Assembly (NCBI GenBank): GCA_913048295.1
Contig: CAJWWK010000001.1
Span: 33,054 to 97,053 of the forward strand
Origin: an uncultured Dehalococcoidia bacterium
GTDB lineage: Bacteria > Chloroflexota > Dehalococcoidia > Lucifugimonadales > Lucifugimonadaceae
Reading direction: 5' to 3'
DNA: 64,000 nucleotides
The notes under the pieces are model-generated. The model did no database searches, was not told the DNA's origin, and was given only the letters and a program-made list of their open reading frames with translations. Position 1 is the stretch's first letter, and each line of letters opens with the position of its first letter. Positions 25,545-26,160 of the stretch are shown here, one piece after another. Both the position numbers and the translations under genes were made by a program.

Positions 25545-25674
25545 TTTTTTCTGGCGAACCGCGCTTCGGCGCCGCAACTGAAACATGAGCCGCGGCGTAT
25601 TCGCATCTGACGAATCTAACCCGGCGTACCAGTAACTGAACTCCTAATCGGAAACGGTAATACAGGAAATCACA

Positions 25675-26160
25675 TTGTTCGAAACTATCAACCAGTATTC
25701 TGCAGTCATCGCCATCCCGGGATTCCTGGTGGCAATGTTCGCATTGCTGCCCGTCAGAAGCTGGCGCAGGCGCATCCCGCTCTATTCCGGGGTCGCGATC
25801 GCCGGGGTAGTAGCAATGCTCGTTCTGCAGCCCGGCGACAGCACGGTAGCGAGCGATGCCGAGGCCCGGGACATCATCGTTTACGGGCAGCCTGTTTTCG
25901 TGGAGTTTTTCTCAAATACCTGAAGCGTTTGCCTGGCATCAGAACCGATCATTCGTTCACTCGAGGGCGAAGTCGGCGACGAGGTTCAGTTTCTCAAGCT
26001 GAACGTACAGGATGCCATTGTGAACCAGTTGGTTCGCGACTACAGGGCCTACATAACGCCCACGTTCCTGGTTATTGGCCGTGACGGCGAGGTAATTTGG
26101 CGCCAGGGGGGCGGTTTGCTGAAAAAAGGGGATGCGCTCGCAGCCCTGAACTCACAGTAG
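25675..26160 (+). CDS. Membrane-anchored thioredoxin-like protein, predicted selenoprotein (UxxC; in-frame TGA at 25921-25923 read as Sec)
   Basis: TTG-started frame has two TM segments, then PVFVEFFSNT-[TGA]-SVCLASEPIIRSLEGEVGDEVQFLKLNVQD...YRAYITPTFLVIGRDGEVIWRQGGG...; conserved Trx beta-strand before and TPTF cis-Pro motif after; TGA replaces the first Cys of CxxC. Confidence 0.82.

Follow-up and report, generated by a model that had tools for sequence, protein, structure and literature searches.

The gene at positions 25675-26160 of the window (the whole stretch of 64,000 nucleotides that was analysed) very probably encodes a selenocysteine (Sec)-containing, membrane-anchored, thioredoxin-like thiol-disulfide oxidoreductase of the SAR202 bacteria. 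The window belongs to a genome of 89% completeness from the genus Candidatus Lucifugimonas (SAR202, Chloroflexota). The computed evidence for this gene consists of its reading frame, its homology, the Sec-decoding genes of the host, the exchange of Sec and Cys among homologs, purifying selection that extends beyond the UGA, and, for most family members, a SECIS-type hairpin; what we infer is the actual insertion of Sec, the topology of the protein, its partners, and which way electrons flow. The selenoprotein reading proposed in an initial annotation of this DNA is strongly supported overall, with the exception of the SECIS element of the window gene itself, which is statistically unconvincing. 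The gene and its elements are arranged as follows:

25664-25669, + strand: AGGAAA, probable ribosome-binding site (Shine-Dalgarno-like) 5 nt upstream of the TTG start, as read from the sequence
25675-26160, + strand: complete gene of 161 residues for the membrane-anchored thioredoxin-like selenoprotein (TGA read as Sec); frame open but for one TGA, Pfam thioredoxin match, predicted fold
25693-25827, + strand: two predicted membrane helices (residues ~7-23 and ~30-50) with a basic RSWRRR loop between them; helices from the predicted model, membrane location suggested by hydrophobicity
25921-25923, + strand: TGA read as selenocysteine, residue 83, position 1 of the UxxC redox motif; aligned codon TGA or Cys in 90/90 distinct family sequences
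25930-25932, + strand: TGC for residue 86, the resolving Cys in the UxxC motif; invariant in 54/54 TGA and 36/36 Cys sequences
25944-25977, + strand: candidate non-standard SECIS hairpin, its outline common to four Lucifugimonas TGA genes
26056-26064, + strand: TPT with the thioredoxin active-site cis-proline (residue 129, codon 26059-26061); proline invariant in a 25-sequence alignment

Re-reading of the sequence matched exactly the frame that had been claimed, which spans 82 codons from the TTG at 25675 up to the TGA at 25921-25923, followed by 78 sense codons up to the TAG at 26158-26160. Codons 84-86 (AGC GTT TGC) give the motif U-S-V-C, and homologs carry Cys at the codon of the TGA, which occupies the position of the first Cys of CxxC as proposed. 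The initial annotation had also considered this placement one that random nonsense mutation would seldom produce, and that it exceeds chance was upheld by a mechanical read-through scan of the whole window: it yielded 49 frames in which a TGA, if read through, has a Cys close by, and the other 48 of these appeared, by eye only, to be ordinary out-of-frame sequence. The postulated thioredoxin domain (FFSNT-U-S-V-C and the cis-Pro TPT) was recovered by the Pfam model Thioredoxin (PF00085), whose match to residues 71-143 spans the TGA if this is translated as a residue (E 5e-7, above the gathering score). Calculated from a 12-sequence alignment, the predicted structure shows a thioredoxin fold (mean pLDDT 80.5; ~83-94 by block for residues 71-160) with the expected order of strand, Sec, and helix (residues 74-79, 83, and 84-103), and thioredoxins were its best matches in the PDB. 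The fold, the UxxC ahead of helix 1, and the cis-proline place the protein in the thioredoxin superfamily (PF00085). It falls outside the classical thioredoxins (TIGR01068), whose model matches across the TGA with E 1.5e-8 and 34.7 bits where 96.8 bits are needed, and outside SaoT (NF040730; 15.4 bits where 65 are needed). The two transmembrane segments that had been noted ahead of the domain correspond to the two N-terminal helices of the predicted model, which are assigned to the membrane by their hydrophobicity; by the positive-inside rule, and with RSWRRR located between these helices, the thioredoxin domain most likely lies outside the cytoplasm.

Sampling covered 100 relatives at first and 197 genomes of the order afterwards, and 90 distinct sequences were kept, the window's own included. 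The family was searched with a 12-sequence profile, a 25-sequence profile being too divergent, and a single-protein scan of named genomes gave no family match. At the codon in question, 54 of the sequences have TGA and 36 have Cys (TGT 22, TGC 14); TAA, TAG, or any non-Cys sense codon was found there in 0/90, so that homologs carry no non-redox residue at position 83, and the second Cys of the motif is kept in 90/90. Relatives thus show no varied stops at the TGA codon itself; one Cys ortholog (G009) and some MAG copies carry lesions elsewhere in the frame. Four species of the genus have TGA, represented by the window genome, G010, G012, and G014, and the remaining species have Cys; the TGA genes of G010, G012, and G014 are 81-85% identical to the window gene. 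G014 corresponds to CP046147.1, the complete genome, sequenced on PacBio, of the cultured strain Candidatus Lucifugimonas marina JH1073, and the agreement of independent assemblies on TGA, this one among them, speaks against a sequence error. When the window gene was compared with other TGA-bearing species, dN/dS 3' of the TGA was ~0.12-0.16 and near the upstream values (dN and dS after the TGA: 0.069/0.444, 0.105/0.683, and 0.090/0.736). Past the TGA, dN is well below dS, which would not be expected of a truncated gene.

The ancestral locus comprises a methyltransferase gene, a REase-like gene, and the Sec/Cys thioredoxin gene, followed by PfkB, Jag, and YidC genes on the opposite strand. In the window genome and G010 (whose contig was followed to PfkB only), the TGA gene occupies this locus, where other species hold the Cys gene. 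G012 and G014 (Candidatus L. marina) each have two copies: the ancestral locus is taken by the Cys gene, and the TGA gene lies at a different site. No Cys copy of the family was found in the window's genome.

Several further observations were made in the sampled genomes. The Cys ortholog of G009 (L041; G009:C5:75498-75974, minus strand) has a TAG at the conserved Glu of FVEFF, which is normally GAG. This TAG is a nonsense mutation or an assembly error; its interpretation as another recoding event was rejected because its location at a conserved Glu codon, six codons upstream of CxxC, indicates an ordinary lesion or error. Frame changes seem to have disrupted the copies in G001, G011, G016, and L106, and some species may be in the process of losing the Cys form to decay. 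Two adjacent, distinct Sec-thioredoxin genes, each with TGA at position 1 of CxxC, are represented by L164 and L165 (G091, G118). A different redoxin (L075; G067:C3:28740-31919, minus strand) has an in-frame TGA in the context GSIT-U-PPC and resembles deiodinase-like or redoxin selenoproteins.

A search of the window's genome for the Sec-decoding machinery recovered all four genes. SelA, selB, and selD scored 508, 323, and 362 bits, respectively, each above the curated cut-off. The selD gene carries a single in-frame TGA of its own (ASCAG-U-AGK), as it does in 17/17 genomes of the genus in which selD was found. The gene of tRNA-Sec (selC) gave no clear signal in ARAGORN and a first Rfam search and was recovered through a 55-nt overlap, inside the gene, between the end of contig C18 (downstream of a trxA gene) and the start of contig C36. 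The C36 fragment scored 50.8 bits against RF01852 (gathering 47), intact copies in the congeners G009 and G010 scored 66 bits, and the anticodon loop CUUCAAC contains the UCA anticodon. Among the 100 relatives, selB is present in 17 of the 18 genomes with the TGA form. In the exception, G044 (TGA form, L065), which is 74% complete, selA and selB were not found, probably due to incompleteness. Neither selA nor selB was found in several small Cys-only genomes (e.g., G022, G023, G024, G033, G041, G042, G050, and G060). The co-occurrence of TGA form and machinery is consistent with the Sec reading and is not a sharp test of it, because most Cys-form genomes within the genus also possess the machinery.

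In the standard hairpin of the family, positions 23-41 to 30-34 are paired (T of TGA = 1) and the loop reads GUN at 31-33. Scored as present if at least 6 of the 8 pairs were formed, it was detected in 43 of the 54 TGA genes versus 1 of the 36 Cys genes. Synonymous codon shuffling among sequences sharing the amino acid revealed a pairing excess of z = 8.6 for TGA and 0.3 for Cys genes. At the pair 24-40, the Lys codon AAG is matched by the Leu codons CTN, and AAA by TTR, in 38/41 sequences (p = 1.7e-8, an optimistic value given shared ancestry); as the covarying changes are silent, it is the RNA and not the protein that is under conservation here. The window gene and the three congeneric TGA genes lack this standard hairpin (4/8 pairs). 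Their candidate non-standard hairpin has an upper stem (25949-25954 / 25965-25970) with a 10-nt loop and a lower stem (25944-25947 / 25974-25977), with one A-C mismatch per stem in the window copy. The consensus fold of the four sequences has -16.25 kcal/mol, and its stability is no better than that of synonymous codon shuffles; the overall folding of the window gene is no stronger than that of such shuffles either (z +0.5). Published rules for bacterial SECIS elements ask for a G in the first two loop positions, a spacing of 16-37 nt, and an MFE <= -7.5 (PMC13188914), and the best window-copy hairpin meeting them has an energy near zero. A generic scan by these rules was dropped as evidence, random window stretches passing nearly as often as TGA genes. 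The SECIS element is supported for the family, the hairpin of the window copy being an unproven candidate, and the missing standard hairpin in the window's clade is the weakest link of the selenoprotein case. Another UxxC branch, whose N-terminus is short and lipoprotein-like (L062, L065, and L066 in G026, G044, and G035, respectively), has its own hairpin after the TGA (ATCGTTACCGGGAATAACGA), with a compensatory change from T-A to C-G in L066.

If the TGA in place of the first Cys had arisen by nonsense mutation or through an error of sequencing, the gene would be a pseudogene or encode a truncated membrane protein of 82 amino acids. Standard annotation would indeed end at the TGA, and the lesions elsewhere in the frame of the G009 Cys ortholog and some MAG copies (TAG, apparent frame breaks) would fit such decay. 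However, TGA at the same codon in 54 distinct sequences with the second Cys kept and no decay, a dN/dS of ~0.15 past the TGA, and its presence in the complete PacBio genome render this explanation highly improbable for the window gene, and at the family level it is already refuted. Near-cognate suppression or a changed genetic code could also lead to decoding of the UGA as Trp or Cys instead of Sec, and the lack of a convincing SECIS element in the window gene would be in line with this. The presence of selA, selB, selD, and tRNA-Sec, the exchange of the codon with Cys only, and the SECIS-type covariation across most of the family speak against this idea, to which we attach very little credence.

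As a variant of the Sec reading, synthesis of the Sec form might depend on selenium, with the 82-amino-acid anchor being made under selenium shortage and species that have an additional, Cys-encoding copy relying on that copy. The gene content of G012 and G014, which keep a Sec copy besides the Cys copy of the ancestral locus, would agree with this variant; the failure to find a Cys copy in the window's genome, at its 89% completeness, does not, and the variant appears unlikely. The odd SECIS region of Lucifugimonas makes a recent change from Cys to Sec conceivable, and such conversions have been described in 17 families (PMC1794560). Tentatively, a lineage descended from ancestors that had switched to Cys could have regained the UGA together with a newly evolved, non-standard SECIS hairpin, the order-wide ancestral hairpin not having been kept; we regard this scenario as possible but rather doubtful. 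One tree suggests that the Sec clade of Lucifugimonas is nested among Cys genes, but a topology in which the Cys genes form a clade of their own withstood the AU test (p 0.46).

According to the favored explanation of the window gene as a Sec-containing thioredoxin-like oxidoreductase, SelB would deliver Sec-tRNA-Sec to UGA codon 83 under the guidance of a hairpin in the RNA immediately 3' of it, and the product would carry its U-S-V-C active site in a thioredoxin domain that most likely lies on the extracytoplasmic side. By analogy to UxxC thioredoxins, Sec-83 would attack substrate disulfides or oxidised thiols and Cys-86 would act as the resolving residue, the cycle proceeding via a selenenylsulfide. 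A transmembrane partner of the DsbD/CcdA type (PF02683) was not found in seven genomes, the window's included, and VKOR was found in G012, G014, and G017 only and not in the window's genome.

This selenoprotein family runs through an abundant ocean clade that is hard to grow, and ordinary gene calling would truncate its TGA genes at the TGA. It represents a natural Sec/Cys series, located within Lucifugimonas at one syntenic locus, and most of its Sec members have a hairpin that covaries via synonymous codons, which makes it useful for the study of Sec gain and loss. The cultured species with both Sec and Cys copies renders the selenoprotein claim directly testable.

Proteins of the TxlA/HCF164 type combine an N-terminal membrane anchor with an extracytoplasmic thioredoxin domain. 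The SAR202 family has this layout in common with them, but differs by Sec in many members and by the DsbD/CcdA partner not found in the seven genomes. With SaoT (NF040730) it shares the UxxC motif and a weak profile similarity confined to residues 74-105 (15.4 bits versus a cut-off of 65). Trx (PF00085, UxxC) and several Trx-like families are among the more than 110 prokaryotic selenoprotein families on record, and the Sec-containing Trx is given as experimentally verified (PMC13188914, Table 1). The window protein resembles this Sec-Trx in its PF00085 domain, Sec at the first Cys, the second Cys, and the cis-proline, but differs by its two N-terminal membrane helices, by FFSNT-UxxC instead of WCGPC, and by its TIGR01068 score of 34.7 bits, which is far under the thioredoxin cut-off of 96.8 bits. 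Marine surveys have recovered UxxC Trx-like sequences by the hundreds (PMC2398784, PMC1088965). As described there, the Trx-like selenoproteins of the Sargasso Sea and GOS data (PMC1088965; PMC2398784, e.g., Trx-like 1 and Trx-like 3) are likewise from ocean bacteria and have the thioredoxin fold, UxxC, and many Cys homologs. These descriptions, by which alone the families were compared, give families and motifs without SAR202 assignment (PMC1088965; PMC2398784), and SAR202 reads may well be among the sequences. We came across no report of a selenium thioredoxin in the SAR202 lineage, and the main text of the paper on the Candidatus L. marina strains (PMC10444878) contains no word beginning with 'selen'. 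The SAR202 gene is a new, lineage-wide addition to the known UxxC thioredoxin selenoproteins.
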